Of a DNA stretch of 64,000 nt, positions 15,210-24,703 are shown one piece after another; the first letter of the stretch is position 1, and every line of letters starts with the position of its first letter. Origin of the DNA: Enemella dayhoffiae (GTDB lineage Bacteria; Actinomycetota; Actinomycetes; Propionibacteriales; Propionibacteriaceae); the NCBI RefSeq assembly GCF_002250625.1, contig NZ_NMVQ01000023.1, forward strand, positions 1 to 64,000, given 5' to 3'. The notes below the pieces were generated by a model that did not search any database, was not told the origin of the DNA, and was given only the letters and a program-made list of their open reading frames with translations. The position numbers were made by a program, and so were the translations under genes.

Positions 15210-16298
15210 ATGGCTGACGAAGACACCCCCACCGAGGTCCTGGATCTCGAGACGATCCGCGCGCTGCCGAAGGTGGCGCTGCACGACCATCTGGACGGGG
15301 GCGTACGCCCGCAGACGATGCTCGACATCGCCGCCGAGGTCGGTCACCAACTGCCGGCCGGTGACGCGGATTCGCTGGCCACCTGGTTCTTCGAGGCCGC
15401 CGACTCGGGTTCGCTGGTCCGCTATCTGGAGACCTTCGACCACACGATCGCGGTGATGCAGCGCGCCGAGGACCTGCGCCGGATCGCGCGCGAGTTCGTG
15501 CTCGATCAGGCCGCCGACTCGGTGGTGTACGCCGAGGCGCGCTGGGCGCCGGAGCAGCACACCCGTGCCGGGCTGAGCATGGCCGAGGCGATCCGTGCGG
15601 TGGGCGAGGGGTTGCGCGAGGGCGTACGCACCGCCGCCGATCAGGAGCAGTACATCACCGTGCGCCAGCTGGTGACCGGGATGCGGCACACCGACACCTC
15701 CCGCGACGTGGCCGAGCTCGGGCTGGACCACGCCGGTGACCTGGTCGCCGGCTTCGACATCGCCGGCCCCGAGGACGGCTTCCCGCCGAGCAACCACGCC
15801 GCCGCGTTCTCCTTGCTGCGTGAGAATCTCGGCCGGTTCACCATCCATGCCGGTGAGGCCGCCGGGGTGGACTCGATCCGCGACGCGCTGGTGCAGGGCG
15901 GGCAGCGGCTCGGTCACGGCGTACGCCTCATCGAGGACATCGACGACTCCGGGGACCTGCCCAGCCTGGGCCCGGTGGCGGCGTACGTGCTGGACCGCCA
16001 GATCCCGCTCGAGGTGTGCCCCACCTCCAACCTGCAGACCGGAATCGCCCAAACGTACGCCGAACACCCGGTCGGCACGCTGGTCGAGCTCGGGTTCAAC
16101 GTGACCATCTCCTGCGACAACCGACTGATGAGCCGCACCACGCTCAGCAACGAGCTCCACCAGCTCGTGCAGGCGTTCGGGTTCGACCGGGTCCAGCTCG
16201 CCCGCTTCGCGCGCAACTCGATCCGGGCGGCCTTCCTGCCCCACACGGTCGCCGAACAGATCTTCGCCGAGCAGATCGTGCCCGGCTACGCCGGCTGA
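15210..16298 (+). CDS. add: Adenosine deaminase
   Basis: A 362-residue metal-dependent deaminase converting adenosine to inosine. Visible metal and catalytic motifs are the HDHLDGG loop near residue 25 (usually HxHLxG), the HAGE motif with catalytic Glu, GHGVRLIED, and the late CDNRLMSRTTLSNE segment. HDHLDGG (Asp-Gly instead of the common His-Gly) is typical of actinobacterial adenosine deaminases. The gene ends the nucleoside block. AACAAT 6 nt before the ATG may be a -10 element of a leaderless transcript. Confidence 0.93.
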   Translation: MADEDTPTEVLDLETIRALPKVALHDHLDGGVRPQTMLDIAAEVGHQLPAGDADSLATWFFEAADSGSLVRYLETFDHTIAVMQRAEDLRRIAREFVLDQAADSVVYAEARWAPEQHTRAGLSMAEAIRAVGEGLREGVRTAADQEQYITVRQLVTGMRHTDTSRDVAELGLDHAGDLVAGFDIAGPEDGFPPSNHAAAFSLLRENLGRFTIHAGEAAGVDSIRDALVQGGQRLGHGVRLIEDIDDSGDLPSLGPVAAYVLDRQIPLEVCPTSNLQTGIAQTYAEHPVGTLVELGFNVTISCDNRLMSRTTLSNELHQLVQAFGFDRVQLARFARNSIRAAFLPHTVAEQIFAEQIVPGYAG

Positions 16299-16652
16299 TG
16301 CGGGGTCGCTGGTTCGTGGCATTCGCCCCTGCTGTTGCTGGGCTACAACTATCCGCTGCATCCGGTGCTGGGTCTGTTCGCGTTCTGCGTGCTGTGCACC
16401 CTGCTCACCGGTCTGTTCGCCTGGGTACGCCAGCGCTCCGGCTCGGTGTGGCCGGCGGCCTACGGGCACGGACTGTTCAACGCCCTCGCCGGTAGCGCGA
16501 TGTTGGTCTTCCAGTCCGCCGACAGTCAGGTCGATACCCTGCATGGCACGGTGCTCGGCTGGTCAGGGTGGTTCATCCCGCTGCTGGTGGTCGCCGCGCT
16601 GGTGGCGCGCCGGGCGTACCAGCCCCTCCCCTGGTTTCGCCCGAACCGGTAG
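16299..16652 (+). pseudogene. 5'-truncated CPBP-family membrane protease remnant
   Basis: Directly after the add stop, one frame reads WHSPLLLLGYNYPLHPVLG and then two hydrophobic helices with AAYGHGLFNALAGS, which match the second and third conserved blocks (the His motifs) of CPBP (Abi) intramembrane proteases. The first block with the EExxR catalytic glutamates is missing because an in-frame stop at 16296-16298 precedes the match. A TTG at 16335 could start a 105-residue product, but no ribosome binding site supports it. I read it as the surviving 3' half of a deleted gene. Confidence 0.65.
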
Positions 16653-16685
16653 GGTCGGACCTCCAGGGGCCGGAGAGGAGTGGGC

Positions 16686-19600
16686 ATGGGACTGGGCAAG
16701 GTGATGCTCGACTGGCCGGTGATCCGCCAGTTCCGTTCCGGGGACCTCCTGGGCCGGGGACCGGCGGTCACCAGTGAGCGCACCCGGGAGCTGACCCCAC
16801 GCACCAACACCGCCGACCACGTGGCCCGCAGCATCTGCCCCTATTGCGCCGTCGGGTGCGGCCAGCGGGTGTTCGTGCAGGACGGCCGGGTCACCCAGAT
16901 CGAGGGGGACCCGGACTCGCCGATCAGCCGCGGTCGGCTGTGCCCCAAGGGCGCGGCCAGCGAACAGCTGGTGAACGCCCCGAACCGGCAGACGAAGGTC
17001 CTCTACCGTCGACCGCACGGCACCGAGTGGGAGCGCCTCGACCTCGACACCGCGCTCGACATGATCGCCAACCGTTTCCTCGAGGCCCGTCGCGCCCATT
17101 GGCAGGATCACGACGACCAGGGCCGCCGGGTCAACCGCACCATGGGCGTGGCCGCCCTGGGCGGGGCGACGCTGGACAACGAGGAGAACTACCTGATCAA
17201 GAAGTTGTTCACCGCCGCCGGAGCGATCCAGATCGAGAACCAGGCCCGGATATGACACTCCGCCACGGTTCCCGGTCTGGGGACCTCGTTCGGGCGCGGG
17301 GGCGCCACGCAGACACTGCAGGATCTGGCCGAGTCTGACTGCATCGTCATCCAGGGCTCCAACATGGCCGAGTGCCACCCGGTGGGCTTCCAGTGGGTGA
17401 CCGAGGCGAAGGCGCGCGGCGCCCGGGTGATCCATGTCGACCCGCGCTTCACCCGCACCTCGGCGGTCTCCGACCGGCACATCCCGATCCGGGTGGGCTC
17501 CGACATCGCGCTGCTGGGTGGGCTGATCAACCACGTCCTGAGCAACGAGCTGTACTTCCACGAATACGTGCAGCACTACACCAACGGCCCCACCCTGGTC
17601 GGGGAGGGGTTCGTCGACACCGAGGACCTGGACGGGTTGTTCAGCGGGTTCGACCCGGAGTTGAACGCCTACGACCCGGCGAGCTGGGCGTACGCCGAGG
17701 GCCCGGAGACCGAATCCGGTGACGACACCGACCGGATCCAGGGCCCGGCCGGAGGGGACACTCATGGCGCCGAGCTGGGCGAGGCCTCCCACGGCGAGTC
17801 GCACGGCTCCGGTGGTCCGGCGTTGGACCACGCCAGCGTGCTCCGTGACGATTCGATGACCGACCCGCGCTGCGTGCTGCAGCTGCTCAAGCGCCACTAC
17901 CGGCGCTACACCCCCGAGATGGTGGCCCAGGTCTGCGGCATCAGCGTGGCCGACTTCCAGTATCTGGCCGAGTCGGTGACCAGCAACTCGGGCCGGGACC
18001 GGACCACCGCCTTCTGCTACGCGGTCGGCTGGACCCAGCACACCGACGGTGCGCAGATCATCCGCACCGCCTCGATCCTGCAGCTGCTGCTCGGCAACGT
18101 GGGCCGCCCCGGTGGCGGAGTGATGGCGTTGCGCGGTCACGCCTCGATCCAGGGGTCCACCGACATCCCCACGCTCTACAACCTGCTGCCGGGCTACCTG
18201 CCCATGCCACGGGCCGGTCAGGAGGACTTCGCGGCCTATCTGCAGACCGCCGGATCCAAGCAGGAGAAGGGATTCTGGGCGAACGCTGACGCCTACGCGG
18301 TCAACCTGCTGAAGGCGTGGTGGGGGGACGCGGCGACCGAGGAGAACGAGTACGGCTACCAGTTCCTGCCCCGGCTCACCGGCGCGCACGGCACCTACCA
18401 GACCACGCTGGGGATGCTGGACGGCCAGGTCGACGGCTATCTGGTGATCGGGCAGAACCCGGCGGTGGGATCCGCCAACGCCCGGCTGCAGCGGCGCGCG
18501 CTGGCCGCGCTCAAGTGGCTGGTGGTACGCGACCTGCGGCTGATCGAGACCGCCACCTTCTGGTCCGACGGTCCCGAGGTGGAGAACGGGGAGGTGGCAC
18601 CCGCCGACATCGGGACCGAGGTGTTCTTCCTGCCGGCGGCCACCCACGTGGAGAAGGCGGGCAGCTTCACCCAGACGCAGCGGCTGCTGCAGTGGCGGGA
18701 AAAGGCGCTCGATCCGCCGGGTGAGGCGATGAGCGATCTGCAGTTCGCGTACCTGCTCGGGCAGCGGATCCGGGAGCGCGTAGCCGGCTCCACCGACCCC
18801 CGTGACCGCGGGCTGCAGGAGCTCACCTGGGACTACCGACTCGACGAGCAGGGCGAGATCGACGCGGAGTCGGTGCTGGCGGAGATCAATGGCCGCCACC
18901 TCACCGGCGAGAAGGCTGGCCAACCGCTCTCCAGCTATCTGGAGATGACCGCCGACGGCTCCACCTCGGGTGGGTGCTGGATCTACACCGGGGTGTACGC
19001 CGACGGCGTCAACCAGGCCAACCGGCGCCGACCGGGGCGGGAGCAGGACCCGATCGCGCCCGAGTGGGGTTGGTCGTGGCCGGCGAACCGGCGGATCCTC
19101 TACAACCGCGCCTCGGCAGACCTCGACGGCAAACCATGGAGCGAGCGCAAGAAGCTGATCTGGTGGGATGAGGAGCAGCGGCGCTGGGTCGGTCGCGACG
19201 TGCCGGACTTCCCGGTCGACATGGCCCCCGACCACCGCGGCAGCGGGGTCGAGGGTGGCCCGGAGGCGTTGGACGGTGACGACCCGTTCATCATGCAGGC
19301 CGACGGAAAGGGCTGGCTGTACGCGCCCAAGGGCATGGTGGACGGCCCGATGCCCACCCATTACGAGGGGGCGGAGTCGCCGGTGCCGAACCCGCTCTAC
19401 GGTCAGCAGACAAACCCGGCGAAGAAGACGTTCCCGCGCCCCGACAACCAGTTCGTGGTCGGCGCCGACGCGGTCGCGGTGTACCCCTATCAGTTCACCA
19501 CCTACCGGTTGACCGAGCACCACACCGCCGGCGGGATGAGCCGGTTCCTGCCCTACCTGTCGGAGCTGCAGCCGGAGATGTTCTGCGAGATCTCCCCGGA

Positions 19601-19973
19601 ACTGGCCGCCGAGCGCGGGCTGGAGAACGGCGGCTGGGCCACCCTGGTCAGCCCGCGCGCCGCGATCGAGACCCGGGTGCTGGTGACCGAGCGGGTGTCC
19701 TCGCTGCAGGTCGCCGGACGGACCATGCACCAGATCGGGCTGCCCTACCACTGGGGTGTGGGTGCCCGCGCCGTGGTCGAGGGTGACGCCGCCAACGATC
19801 TGCTGGGCATCGTGCTCGACCCGAACGTGCAGATCCAGGAGTCGAAGGTCGGCATGTGCGACATCCGGCCGGGCCGCCGCCCGCGCGGACCAGCGTTGTC
19901 CGCGCTCGTCGCCGACTATCAGCGGCGGGCCGGCCTGCAGCCCGAAACCAGCCCGAGGAAGGGGAAGCGCTGA
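16686..19973 (+). CDS. Formate dehydrogenase catalytic subunit, selenocysteine-containing
   Basis: One 1095-residue molybdopterin oxidoreductase interrupted in frame by TGA at 17253-17255, which I read as selenocysteine 190. The residues around it, IENQARI-Sec-HSATVPGLGTSFGRGG, match the active site of FdnG/FdhF-type enzymes, where Sec or Cys ligates Mo/W. The N-terminus binds one [4Fe-4S] cluster (CPYCAVGC at 51-58, Cys86). No Tat signal is visible, so the enzyme should face the cytoplasm, unlike E. coli FdnG. ATG 16686 follows GGAGAGGAG by five bases. The Fe-S and membrane subunits follow with overlapping starts, and selD, tRNA-Sec, selA and selB lie just downstream. A naive gene caller would split this into a 190-residue and an 869-residue piece. 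Confidence 0.95.
17253..17285 (+). promoter_or_regulatory. SECIS element directing UGA to selenocysteine
   Basis: Starting 11 nt after the UGA, a 7-bp stem (GGTTCCC at 17267-17273 with GGGGACC at 17279-17285, one T-G wobble) closes the loop GGTCT (17274-17278). A GGUCU apical loop at 11 nt is the geometry I recall for the E. coli fdhF SECIS, which SelB's C-terminal winged helices bind. The element lies inside the coding sequence, as in all bacterial SECIS. Confidence 0.92.
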
Positions 19974-21082
19974 TGGGGTTCTGGCGCCAGCAACTCATCG
20001 GGGCGACCAACCCCGCGCGTGATGCCGCGTGGCAGGAAGTCAAGCCCCGCAAGGGTTTCTTCACCGACACCTCCATCTGCATCGGCTGCAAGGCGTGCGA
20101 GGTCGCCTGCAAGGAGTGGAACCACGTGCCGACCCGCAGCCACGGTCGGGAGCGGCACGGGGGAGTGCTCGGCCTGAGCACCGAGTCCTACGACAACACT
20201 GGGCACCTGGGCGCCGACACGTGGCGGCACGTGGCGTTCATCGAGCAGGGACCTGAGCAGTTGGCGCGCGCCCGGCGTACCGGATCGGTGGACCTGGGCA
20301 TGCCGCGCGTACGCCCGACGGTGGCTGAGCCTGTCGGGACGGTGGCTGAGCCTGTCGAAGCCACCCCTTCGACGGGCTCAGGGGACGTTGCAGGACCAGG
20401 CTCAGGGGACGTTGCAGGACCAGGTTCAGGGGTCGGGTTCGCCGAACCCGACGACACCCTGCCTCCGGTGCGCTGGCTGATGAGCTCTGACGTGTGCAAG
20501 CACTGCACCCACGCGGGCTGCCTGGACGTGTGCCCGACCGGGGCGCTGTTTCGGACCGAATACGGCACCGTGGTGGTCCAACCCGACGTCTGCAACGGCT
20601 GCGGATACTGCGTCGGCTCCTGCCCGTTCGGGGTGATCGGACGGCGGGAGAACGGCCTGGTCGAGCTGGCCGACGGCAGCAGCGCCAAGCCCCCGAACGC
20701 CGGCGTGGCCCAGAAGTGCACGCTGTGCTATGACCGGATCCGGGAGGACCAGACGCCCGCGTGCGCCCAGACCTGTCCCACCACCAGCATCAAGTTCGGC
20801 GACCACGACGAAATGGTGCGGTTGGCCCGGGAACGGCTGGAAGTGCTGCACGCACAGGGACATCCCGAGGCCCGGCTCTACGGCACCAACCCCGACGACG
20901 GGGTCGGGGGGACGGGATCGGTGTTCCTGCTGATGGACGAGCCGGAGGCGTACGGGCTGCCGCCCGATCCGATCGTGACCACCGCCGTGCTGCCGAAGAT
21001 GTTCACCATGGCAGGGATCGCGGGCACCGCGCTGATCGGCGCGGTGCTGGCCGCCTTTGCCGGGGGCGTGGTCCGACGATGA
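19973..21082 (+). CDS. Formate dehydrogenase iron-sulfur subunit
   Basis: A 369-residue ferredoxin-like electron-transfer subunit with four [4Fe-4S] Cys clusters: CIGCKACEVAC at residues 36-46, CKHCTHAGCLDVCP, CNGCGYCVGSCP and CTLCYDRI...CAQTCP. A single membrane helix near the C-terminus (about residues 343-365) anchors it. The start overlaps the catalytic subunit stop (TGATG). Residues 116-153 (20318-20431) are a low-complexity Gly/Ser/Pro/Val insertion encoded by dispersed repeat DNA, without disruption of the frame. It carries electrons from the Sec subunit to the NrfD-like membrane protein. Confidence 0.93.
   Translation: MGFWRQQLIGATNPARDAAWQEVKPRKGFFTDTSICIGCKACEVACKEWNHVPTRSHGRERHGGVLGLSTESYDNTGHLGADTWRHVAFIEQGPEQLARARRTGSVDLGMPRVRPTVAEPVGTVAEPVEATPSTGSGDVAGPGSGDVAGPGSGVGFAEPDDTLPPVRWLMSSDVCKHCTHAGCLDVCPTGALFRTEYGTVVVQPDVCNGCGYCVGSCPFGVIGRRENGLVELADGSSAKPPNAGVAQKCTLCYDRIREDQTPACAQTCPTTSIKFGDHDEMVRLARERLEVLHAQGHPEARLYGTNPDDGVGGTGSVFLLMDEPEAYGLPPDPIVTTAVLPKMFTMAGIAGTALIGAVLAAFAGGVVRR
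20318..20431 (+). repeat. Family A dispersed repeats inserted in frame in fdhB
   Basis: Two tandem copies of GGTGGCTGAGCCTGTCG (20321 and 20341) are followed by an inverted copy, so that GAGCCTGTCGAAG (20348-20360) pairs with CTTCGACGGGCTC (20367-20379, one mismatch). Next come two identical 24-bp units (20375-20398 and 20399-20422), each encoding eight residues. The length is a multiple of three and no stop is created. The core is the one found at 30276, 42270 and 46841. Confidence 0.9.
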
Positions 21083-22149
21083 CGACCAGACCCTTCGACG
21101 ATGACCGGCCGCCGCTGCTCGGACCCCGGAAACGCCGTGACGGTGACGGTTCCAGGCGACGCAGCGATCCGAACGCCACCGTGCCGGAGGCCGAGTTCAT
21201 CAGCTACTACGGGCACAACGTGGTCCAACCGCCGCCGTGGGAGTGGCCGATCCCGGCGTACCTGTTCCTCGGTGGGCTCGCCGCCGGCTCCGGCCTGGTC
21301 GCCGCCGGCGGACACTTCACCGGGCGACCGCGGCTGCGTCGCCGCGGCCGGTACGCCGCGATCGGCGCGGCGGCCCTCGGCGGCGCGGCGCTGGCCAAGG
21401 ACCTGGGCCGACCCGAGCGGGTGCTGAACATGTTCCGCACCGTCAAGCTCACCTCGCCGATGTCGGTCGGTACCTGGATCCTCACCGGGTTCGGCGCCTG
21501 CACCGGCGCGGCCGTCGGGCTGGAGCTGCTCCGGCCGCGGCTGCGGTCGGGGAGCGGACTGGCCGGGGCGGCCGGCGTGGTCGACGGACTGGCCAGTGCC
21601 GGTTCGGCGTTCTTCGCGCCACCGCTGGCGGCGTACACCGCCGTGCTGCTCGCCGACACGGCCGCACCCACCTGGCACGAGTCCTATCGGGAGCTGCCGT
21701 TCGTGTTCGTCAGCTCCGCGCTGGCCGCCGGGACCGGGCTGTCCATGATCACCACCCCGACCGCCGAAACCAGGGGCCCGGTGCGACAGTTGGCCGTGCT
21801 GGGCGCGGCCTGCGAGTTGGGGATCGGGGAACTGATGACCCGTCGCCTGGGGGAGTTGGCCGAGCCGTTCGAGGAACCCCCGGCGAAGCGGTGGCACCAG
21901 GTGGCCCGGGTGCTCACGGTCGTCGGCGCGGTCGGTGCCGCCGTGGTCGGGGGGACGCGGGTTGGTGCGGCGCTGTCCGGTGCGGCGCTGATCGGCGGCT
22001 CGCTGGCCACCCGGTTCGCGGTGTTCCACGCCGGCATCACGTCCGCGAAGGACCCGCGCTACACGGTACGCCCCCAGCGCGCCCGCGCTGCCGCTGCCGC
22101 GGCCGAGGGGCGTGGCGTCACCCAACCCGGCGGTGAGTGGCCCCGCTGA
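21079..22149 (+). CDS. NrfD/PsrC-like membrane subunit of formate dehydrogenase
   Basis: A 356-residue polytopic protein. After a charged N-terminus (about 40 residues) comes FISYYGHNVVQPPPWEWPIPAYL-type sequence and roughly eight membrane helices, typical of NrfD-family quinone-interacting subunits that lack haem. It overlaps the Fe-S subunit by 4 nt (ATGA) and completes a three-subunit enzyme: Sec catalytic, Fe-S, membrane. Electrons from formate probably go to the menaquinone pool. It ends before a large hairpin shared with the convergent selD gene. Confidence 0.85.
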   Translation: MTTRPFDDDRPPLLGPRKRRDGDGSRRRSDPNATVPEAEFISYYGHNVVQPPPWEWPIPAYLFLGGLAAGSGLVAAGGHFTGRPRLRRRGRYAAIGAAALGGAALAKDLGRPERVLNMFRTVKLTSPMSVGTWILTGFGACTGAAVGLELLRPRLRSGSGLAGAAGVVDGLASAGSAFFAPPLAAYTAVLLADTAAPTWHESYRELPFVFVSSALAAGTGLSMITTPTAETRGPVRQLAVLGAACELGIGELMTRRLGELAEPFEEPPAKRWHQVARVLTVVGAVGAAVVGGTRVGAALSGAALIGGSLATRFAVFHAGITSAKDPRYTVRPQRARAAAAAAEGRGVTQPGGEWPR

Positions 22150-22255: not shown

Positions 22256-23242
22256 TCAGCGGACCGTGATCACCGGGCCATCCCCGGCCGGGACCAGCTC
22301 ACCGATCACCGGGGCGCCAGCGATCTCACCGGCGAGCAGCAGCCCTCCGGAGGTTTGGGCGTCGGCGAGCAGCAACAGTTCGTCCTCGGCAACTTCTGCC
22401 GACAGGTGCGGGGCCACCCAGTCCAGGTTGCGCCGGCTGCCGCCGGGCACGAACCCCTCGGCCAGCGACTGCCTGGCCGCGGCCAGCATCGGTACCGCCC
22501 GGTGGTCGATGACCGCCGCCACCCCCGAGGCGCGGCACAGCTTGTAGAGGTGGCCGAGCAGGCCGAAACCGGTGACATCGGTGGCCGCCCGGATGCCCGC
22601 CGCCAGAGCCGCTGCCGAGGCGTCCGCATTCAGCGCGGTCATCGACGCGACTGCCTCCTCGAACCGCTCACCGGTGGCCTTGTGCCGGTTGTTGAGTACG
22701 CCGACCCCCAGCGGCTTTGTCAGCGACAGCGGCAATCCCGGCTGTCCCGCGTCGTTGCGCAGCAGCCGGTCGGCCTTCCCCCGCCCGGTGACCGCGAGGC
22801 CGTAGATCGGTTCGGGGTTGTCGATGCTGTGCCCACCGGCCAGCGGCGTCGCGGCCTGCCGGCAGACCGCCAGCCCGCCGCGCAGCACCTCGGTGGCGAG
22901 TTCGGTCGGCAGCACCCCGCGCGGCCACCCCAGCAGGTTGATCGCCAGCATCGGCGTACCCCCCATCGCATAGATGTCGCTCAGCGCATTGGCCGCGGCG
23001 ATCCGCCCCCAGTCGAACGGGTCGTCGACCACCGGGGTGAAGAAATCGGTGGTGGAGATGATCACCGTGCCATCGCCGGCCGGGTCGAGCAGCACCGCCG
23101 CGGCGTCGTCACCGTGCTCCAGCCCGACCACCAGTTCGGGGGAGTCCACGCCGACGAGCCCGGACACCATCTGCTCCAGTTCGCCGGGTGGGATCTTGCA
23201 GGCACAGCCGCCGCCGTGGGCATACGAGGTGAGGCGTTTCAT
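22256..23242 (-). CDS. selD: Selenide, water dikinase (selenophosphate synthetase)
   Basis: A 328-residue enzyme making selenophosphate from selenide and ATP, the selenium donor for Sec-tRNA. The N-terminal HGGGCACK holds the active-site Cys13 and Lys16 (equivalent to Cys17 and Lys20 of E. coli); the protein itself uses Cys, not Sec, at this position. The phosphate-binding ISTTDFFTPVVDDPF and AANALSDIYAMGG motifs are intact. It is divergent from tRNA-Sec/selA/selB and convergent with the fdh operon. TAGAGT stands 6 nt before the ATG, pointing to a leaderless message. Confidence 0.96.
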   Translation of the reverse strand: MKRLTSYAHGGGCACKIPPGELEQMVSGLVGVDSPELVVGLEHGDDAAAVLLDPAGDGTVIISTTDFFTPVVDDPFDWGRIAAANALSDIYAMGGTPMLAINLLGWPRGVLPTELATEVLRGGLAVCRQAATPLAGGHSIDNPEPIYGLAVTGRGKADRLLRNDAGQPGLPLSLTKPLGVGVLNNRHKATGERFEEAVASMTALNADASAAALAAGIRAATDVTGFGLLGHLYKLCRASGVAAVIDHRAVPMLAAARQSLAEGFVPGGSRRNLDWVAPHLSAEVAEDELLLLADAQTSGGLLLAGEIAGAPVIGELVPAGDGPVITVR

Positions 23243-23281: not shown

Positions 23282-23377
23282 GGAGGCGTCTGGGTACCTG
23301 GTGGGCCCCCCGGTCTTCAAAACCGGTGAGATCGAGTACCTCGGTCTGGCGGGTTCGATTCCCGTCCGCCTCCGCCA
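23282..23377 (+). tRNA. selC: Selenocysteine tRNA (anticodon UCA)
   Basis: A 96-nt tRNA with anticodon TCA at 23317-23319 in the loop CTTCAAA on a CCGGT/ACCGG stem. A six-pair D stem with one bulge, an 8-bp variable arm (AGATCGAG with CTCGGTCT around loop TAC), the TTCGATT T loop, discriminator G and encoded CCA (23375-23377) all fit tRNA-Sec. The acceptor has seven clean pairs (GGAGGCG with CGCCTCC); position 8 is a T-C mismatch, while G23348 can pair with C23366 to give a six-pair T stem, keeping the 13-bp stack. It lies 21 nt upstream of selA, probably in the same transcript. Confidence 0.95.
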
Positions 23378-23398: not shown

Positions 23399-24703
23399 GT
23401 GAGCGATCCGCGGCGCGACATCCCGCGCACCGACGCGCTGCTGGCCCGGCCCGCCATGCTCGCGGCCAGCGAACGGCTCGGGAGCGAGGCCGTGCGGGCG
23501 GTGGTACGCCGTGCCCAGGACCAGGCACGGGCCGGCCGGATCACCCCCGAGCAGGTCGCCGGGTGTGCCGAACGAGACCTGAGCGGACCGACCCCACTGC
23601 GCGCCGTGCTCAACGCCACCGGGATCGTGGTGCACACCAACCTCGGCCGGGCCCCGTTGTCGGAGGCCGCGGTGCGGGCCATCGTCGAGGCCAGCGGGTA
23701 CGCCGACGTCGAGCTCGACCTCGCCACCGGCCGCCGCGCCCGACGCGGCGCCGCCGCGCTGACCGCGCTGCGCACCGCCTGCCCGGGCGCCGAGGACGCG
23801 TTGGTGGTGAACAACGGGGCCGCCGCGTTGGTGCTCGCCACCACCGCCCTGGCCGCCGGGCGTGAGGTGATCGTCTCCCGCGGCGAACTGGTCGAGATCG
23901 GCGACGGCTTCCGGTTGCCGGAGTTGATCGCCTCCGCCGGGGCACGAATCCGCGAGGTGGGCACCACCAATCGCACCCACCCGGCCGACTATGCCGAGGC
24001 CGTCGGACCGGACACCGGCTGCATCCTCAAGGTGCACCCGAGCAACTTCGCGGTCACCGGATTCACGGCCAGCGTTGGGATCGCGGAGCTCGCTGGGCTC
24101 GGGGTCCCGGTCGTGGCCGACCTCGGCTCCGGCCTGTTGGCCCCCGACCCGGCGTTGCCCGACGAGCCCGACGCCGCCACCGCACTCGCCGCTGGCGCCG
24201 ACCTGGTCACCGCCAGCGGGGACAAGCTGCTCGGCGGCCCGCAGGCGGGATTGTTGCTGGGCGAGGCAGAACTCGTGCAGCGCCTACGCCGGCACCCCCT
24301 GCAACGCGCGCTGCGCGTGGACAAGCTCACCCTGGCCGCGCTGCACGCCACCCTGACCGGACCCGTGCCGCCGGTGAGCGACCATCGCCGCGCCGATCCC
24401 GCTCGGCTGAAGGAGCGCTGCCAACGCTTGGCCGACCGACTGGAGTTCCCGGCCGACGTGGTCCCGAGCACCGGTCACGTCGGCGGCGGCGGCGCTCCCG
24501 GCGTCCCGCTGCCCGGCTGGGCGGTCGCCGTGCCAGAGCCGCTGGCCGAAGCGCTGCGTCTCGGCGACCCGGCGGTGCTCGCCCGCACCGAACACGGCCG
24601 CTGTCTGGTCGACCCGCGCTGCATCCCCGCCGGCCGCGACGACGACCTGATCGCCGCAATCACCTGTGCCGCACGGAAAGCGGGGATCGCCGGGTGCGGG
24701 TGA
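23399..24703 (+). CDS. selA: L-seryl-tRNA(Sec) selenium transferase
   Basis: A 434-residue PLP enzyme that converts Ser-tRNA(Sec) to Sec-tRNA(Sec) with selenophosphate. The PLP lysine lies in SGDKLLGGPQAG, the family signature; NATGIVVHTNLGRAP and VLVEIGDGFR-like segments (GELVEIGDGF) are also present. GTG 23399 follows GAGGAGG. The gene starts 21 nt after the tRNA it acts on, and its end overlaps selB by 10 nt. A bacterial SelA, rather than PSTK/SepSecS, confirms the bacterial Sec route. Confidence 0.97.
   Translation: MSDPRRDIPRTDALLARPAMLAASERLGSEAVRAVVRRAQDQARAGRITPEQVAGCAERDLSGPTPLRAVLNATGIVVHTNLGRAPLSEAAVRAIVEASGYADVELDLATGRRARRGAAALTALRTACPGAEDALVVNNGAAALVLATTALAAGREVIVSRGELVEIGDGFRLPELIASAGARIREVGTTNRTHPADYAEAVGPDTGCILKVHPSNFAVTGFTASVGIAELAGLGVPVVADLGSGLLAPDPALPDEPDAATALAAGADLVTASGDKLLGGPQAGLLLGEAELVQRLRRHPLQRALRVDKLTLAALHATLTGPVPPVSDHRRADPARLKERCQRLADRLEFPADVVPSTGHVGGGGAPGVPLPGWAVAVPEPLAEALRLGDPAVLARTEHGRCLVDPRCIPAGRDDDLIAAITCAARKAGIAGCG

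Follow-up and report, generated by a model that had tools for sequence, protein, structure and literature searches.

An in-frame UGA almost certainly read as selenocysteine in a formate dehydrogenase gene of Enemella dayhoffiae

In the genome of Enemella dayhoffiae, two open reading frames that a mechanical list keeps apart (16680-17255, with a GTG start, and 17364-19973, with an ATG start) almost certainly form one gene, fdhA, for the catalytic subunit of a molybdenum- or tungsten-dependent formate dehydrogenase (FDH) of the FdhABC type, in which codon 190, a UGA, stands for selenocysteine (Sec) and is read by the standard Sec machinery. The gene call is corrected accordingly, to one 1095-residue selenoenzyme in place of two fragments, and the organism is thus probably able to oxidise formate and dependent on selenium for doing so. 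Positions refer to the window, i.e. the whole stretch of DNA analysed (64,000 nucleotides), and are collected in Table 1.

Table 1. The fdh-sel cluster of E. dayhoffiae: features, positions in the window and supporting evidence
Feature	Position	Strand	Evidence
fdhA, predicted selenocysteine formate dehydrogenase alpha subunit, 1095 aa	16686..19973	+	NF041513 match; PDB matches
Predicted Sec-encoding UGA codon, residue 190	17253..17255	+	Homologue codons TGA/TGC; alignment with 1H0H and 1KQF
SECIS apical hairpin, 7 bp stem, GGUCU loop at 17274-17278	17267..17285	+	Geometry, covariation, covariance model
fdhB, iron-sulfur (4Fe-4S) beta subunit	19973..21082	+	Fer4 domains, among them Fer4_11; TIGR01582 FDH-beta at 155 bits, short of its cut-off
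fdhC, NrfD-type membrane anchor subunit	21079..22149	+	PF03916 NrfD in the frame ending at 22149
selD, selenophosphate synthase, Cys form (GGGCACK)	22256..23242	-	TIGR00476, 382 bits (cut-off 125)
selC, tRNA-Sec, anticodon TCA	23282..23377	+	ARAGORN; Rfam RF01852, 72.1 bits (gathering 47)
selA, L-seryl-tRNA(Sec) selenium transferase	23399..24703	+	TIGR00474, 411 bits (cut-off 268)
selB, Sec-specific elongation factor, C-terminal winged helix	24694..26445	+	TIGR00475, 274 bits (cut-off 242); PF09107 SelB-wing_3

Reading frame and family of FdhA

From the ATG at 16686 to the stop codon at 19971-19973, the fdhA frame contains a single internal stop, the TGA at codon 190, and the joined translation carries U190 at that point; translation might instead begin at a GTG at 16680. 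A preliminary description of this DNA had held that the two apparent genes share one frame and that an ordinary caller would split them at 17255 and near 17364; nothing else interrupts the frame, and the mechanical list makes exactly such a split.

The joined FdhA matches the NCBIfam model of actinobacterial formate dehydrogenases (NF041513) over its full length (residues 6-1081) and continuously across the UGA, at 1867 bits against a curated cut-off of 1400. The Pfam domains PF04879, PF00384 and PF01568 all score above their cut-offs, in the order N-terminal 4Fe-4S (residues 45-97), molybdopterin and C-terminal molybdopterin-dinucleotide-binding domain. A search of the PDB returned 51 matches, with 1h0h and 1kqf at the top. 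The same description had seen in the residues around the UGA the active-site context of formate dehydrogenases and proposed aligning the U190-joined translation to such proteins; the alignment runs through the UGA and sets U190 opposite the modified residue X of both 1KQF (Escherichia coli Fdh-N) and 1H0H (the Desulfovibrio W-FDH), a residue which in these structures is the selenocysteine that ligates tungsten or molybdenum. Together with the exchange of TGA and TGC among homologues (see below), this alignment places the in-frame UGA at the catalytic Sec/Cys position.

Two neighbouring frames deserve mention. An open frame of 1062 codons runs antisense to fdhA (16563-19751, minus strand) and is probably an effect of high GC content and codon structure and no gene. 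Directly upstream of fdhA, and abutting the adenosine deaminase gene at 15210-16298, the frame 16302-16652 covers no more than the C-terminal end of a CAAX-protease (Rce1-like) profile, positions 57-93 of 93, and scores just below the cut-off; it looks like a truncated remnant.

Codon 190 among homologues

The homologous genes compared come from 80 loci in public genomes of Actinomycetota, Acidobacteriota and Myxococcota. Only two codons occur at the position aligned with codon 190: TGA in 70 of the 80 and TGC (Cys) in the other ten. In the protein tree the ten TGC genes form one clade among Actinomycetota, i.e. one change on the tree, which is consistent with a single Sec/Cys exchange. The clade spans Pseudonocardiaceae, Mycobacteriaceae and Micrococcaceae, and its loci are flanked by no sel gene (0 of the TGC loci), all of which suggests one exchange that was later spread by transfer. 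The full set of four sel genes lies in the flanks of 29 TGA loci; at 31 further TGA loci no sel gene was seen in the flanks examined, some of which are short, and the genomes concerned may carry their sel genes at another place.

Within the genus, each of the five genomes searched, that of E. dayhoffiae included, has a single FDH gene of this kind, interrupted by just one TGA, and each has a tRNA-Sec gene scoring above the Rfam gathering threshold. The recurrence of the same UGA gene and of tRNA-Sec in all five excludes a sequencing error or a recent mutation. The Sec/Cys exchange, the family match and the Sec machinery described below all favour the single selenoprotein that had been proposed.

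Sec machinery, SECIS hairpin and competing readings

Downstream of fdhA, whose stop codon is overlapped by the ATG of fdhB, follow fdhC (its start at ATG 21079 was chosen by frame and position) and then, between 22256 and 26445, selD, the tRNA-Sec gene, selA and selB, which is the full machinery that had been claimed for this locus. SelA, SelB, SelD and tRNA-Sec, the set by which the Sec decoding trait is recognised, are thus all present in the genome. The winged-helix domain of SelB is its SECIS-binding part. On the strength of what is established for this family, SelD would provide selenophosphate, SelA would turn seryl-tRNA(Sec) into selenocysteyl-tRNA(Sec), and SelB, with its C-terminal winged helix bound to the SECIS hairpin just downstream of UGA190, would deliver the latter to the ribosome. 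In the product, the predicted catalytic subunit of an FDH anchored in the membrane, Sec190 would ligate molybdenum or tungsten and take part in the oxidation of formate to CO2.

The SECIS hairpin with a GGUCU loop had been placed 11 nt downstream of the UGA, and the placement is exact: the stem arms occupy 17267-17273 and 17279-17285, the stem starting 11 nt and the loop 18 nt past the UGA. The bacterial SECIS model asks for a loop of 3-9 nt with a G in its first two positions, a stem of 4-16 bp, a loop 16-37 nt after the UGA and a minimum free energy of -7.5 kcal/mol or lower (PMC13188914), and the hairpin agrees with it in its 5-nt loop, 7 bp, 18-nt spacing and -10.7 kcal/mol. That energy is not better than in shuffled sequences (z 0.34), and, by a loose rule, 5 of the window's 1481 TGA trinucleotides are followed by a comparable hairpin. 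On its own, the structure carries little weight. Against the Rfam family SECIS_3 (RF01989) it scores 25.7 bits (E 0.011), the gathering score being 63, and it is not filed under that family; such a score does not exclude function, for bacterial SECIS elements are diverse (PMC13188914).

It is conservation and covariation across homologues that lift the hairpin beyond chance. Among 64 distinct TGA sequences, 96% of the stem cells are paired and two-sided changes number 27, against 5.6 in shuffles, whereas a shifted stem register destroys the pairing. The loop reads GGUCU, AGUUU or AGUCU in 71 of 71 TGA genes, and AGT or GGT serves as the loop codon (codon +7) in every one of these but in only one of the ten TGC genes, background use of the two being 3.7% of Ser and 15.5% of Gly codons, respectively; moreover, three of the seven pairs are broken in eight of the ten TGC genes. 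The hairpin is hence maintained by compensatory changes and rare codons where the codon is TGA, and is degraded where it is TGC. The possibility that the SECIS reaches further down, through a conserved lower stem that takes in the UGA, was considered and rejected, RNAalifold over 66 columns having returned the apical stem only. When the whole genome was searched with a covariance model of the hairpin, the fdhA site stood out (E 1.4e-10, next best E 3.9), and no selenoprotein other than FdhA was accordingly found to have a SECIS of the fdhA type, the type to which such a search is confined, since SECIS elements of other types would be missed by it.

A minor loose end concerns the codon before the UGA (codon -1, 17250-17252), which is ATA in fdhA. 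In the 70 TGA genes with Ile at this place, kinship being partly controlled, the codon is ATT in 46, ATA in 23 and ATC in one. ATT and ATA thus account for 69 of 70, against about 12% expected, for 88% of the Ile codons elsewhere in these TGA genes are ATC. Conserved base pairing at codon -1 was not returned by RNAalifold over the 66 columns, and a literature search for upstream-codon effects on the decoding of Sec UGA led to a single review, from whose text the word "upstream" is absent. Eight more distant FDH genes have GTC in seven cases (five UGA and two TGC genes) and ATA in Thermomicrobium, so FDHs at large do not follow the ATT/ATA rule. The bias could be a family-specific codon preference; that a rare A/U-ending Ile codon in this family of high-GC genes extends the Sec-insertion signal upstream, via either the tRNA in the P site or the nucleotide preceding the UGA, is a tentative and rather unlikely idea.

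Could the UGA be a true stop, created by mutation or sequencing error, so that fdhA is a pseudogene, or else two genes with the second starting from ATG 17364? The plain list of frames does show two, and a Met at 17364 is common among relatives (69 of 81). Yet TGA stands at the equivalent codon in the great majority of homologues and in all five genomes searched in the genus, and residues 191-226, which would then go untranslated, show a mean identity to homologues of 78%, as compared with 75% after 17364, with differences lying mostly at third codon positions. Besides, Shine-Dalgarno-like pairing reaches only -3.0 ahead of 17364, as against -5.8 ahead of 16686, and a protein starting at 17364 would be deprived of the 4Fe-4S domain. 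The homologous TGA codons and the conservation between the UGA and 17364 led me to reject both the pseudogene and the two-gene forms of this explanation, whose chance of being right is minute.

Equally improbable, to the point of being negligible, is a UGA read through as an amino acid other than Sec by a near-cognate tRNA, e.g. as Trp or Cys. Near-cognate readthrough of UGA at low level is generally known, but here a complete Sec machinery, tRNA-Sec included, adjoins the gene, the covarying SECIS is found in TGA genes only, and TGC is the sole alternative codon in homologues.

Comparison with known systems

Selenocysteine formate dehydrogenase is a textbook bacterial selenoprotein. The FDH alpha subunit has been described as the most widespread selenoprotein of bacteria (PMC5029168). 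Within the actinobacteria, Corynebacterium aurimucosum was reported in 2010 to carry fdnG-fdxH together with selABD and selC, with an internal UGA in fdnG (PMC2830990); likened by this published description, the locus of E. dayhoffiae has the same UGA-containing FDH alpha gene clustered with selD, selA, selB and a tRNA-Sec gene, and differs in the organism, no functional difference being found. In Actinomycetospora chiangmaiensis DSM 45062, the removal of formate was shown in 2020 to be selenite-dependent, and a Sec-containing FdhA of about 1080 residues is accompanied by FdhB, FdhC, SelA and SelB (PMC7176365). That organism has three Sec-FDH systems, as opposed to the one match to NF041513 in the E. 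dayhoffiae genome, and selD is not listed in its FDH1 cluster, whereas it is part of the cluster described here.

Among structurally characterised enzymes, E. coli FdnG (1KQF) and the Desulfovibrio W-FDH (1H0H) belong to the same fold family as FdhA, yet enterobacterial FdnG is only some 37-38% identical to it and falls under a different NCBIfam model. The membrane anchors differ as well, being of the NrfD type in E. dayhoffiae and FdnI, a cytochrome b, in E. coli Fdh-N.

The same fdh-nrfD-selD-selA-selB order, with the same strands and UGA, is found on plasmid pYA7-1a of Arthrobacter sp. YA7-1 and on a plasmid of Tsukamurella tyrosinosolvens, and on both RefSeq annotates a single CDS across the UGA. 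Over the whole of FdhA the identity to E. dayhoffiae is 66-70%, and SelD is 70% identical to the annotated SelD of pYA7-1a. These two clusters differ in being plasmid-borne; pYA7-1a is typed as conjugative and has a transposase of the Tn3 family after selB, and a plasmid-borne fdhABC-selD-selA-selB cluster might be a means by which the Sec trait is moved. With the cluster published for actinobacteria, and relatives already annotated as one CDS, the finding is correct, ordinary and already known; it changes the annotation of one genome and leaves general knowledge of selenoproteins as it was.
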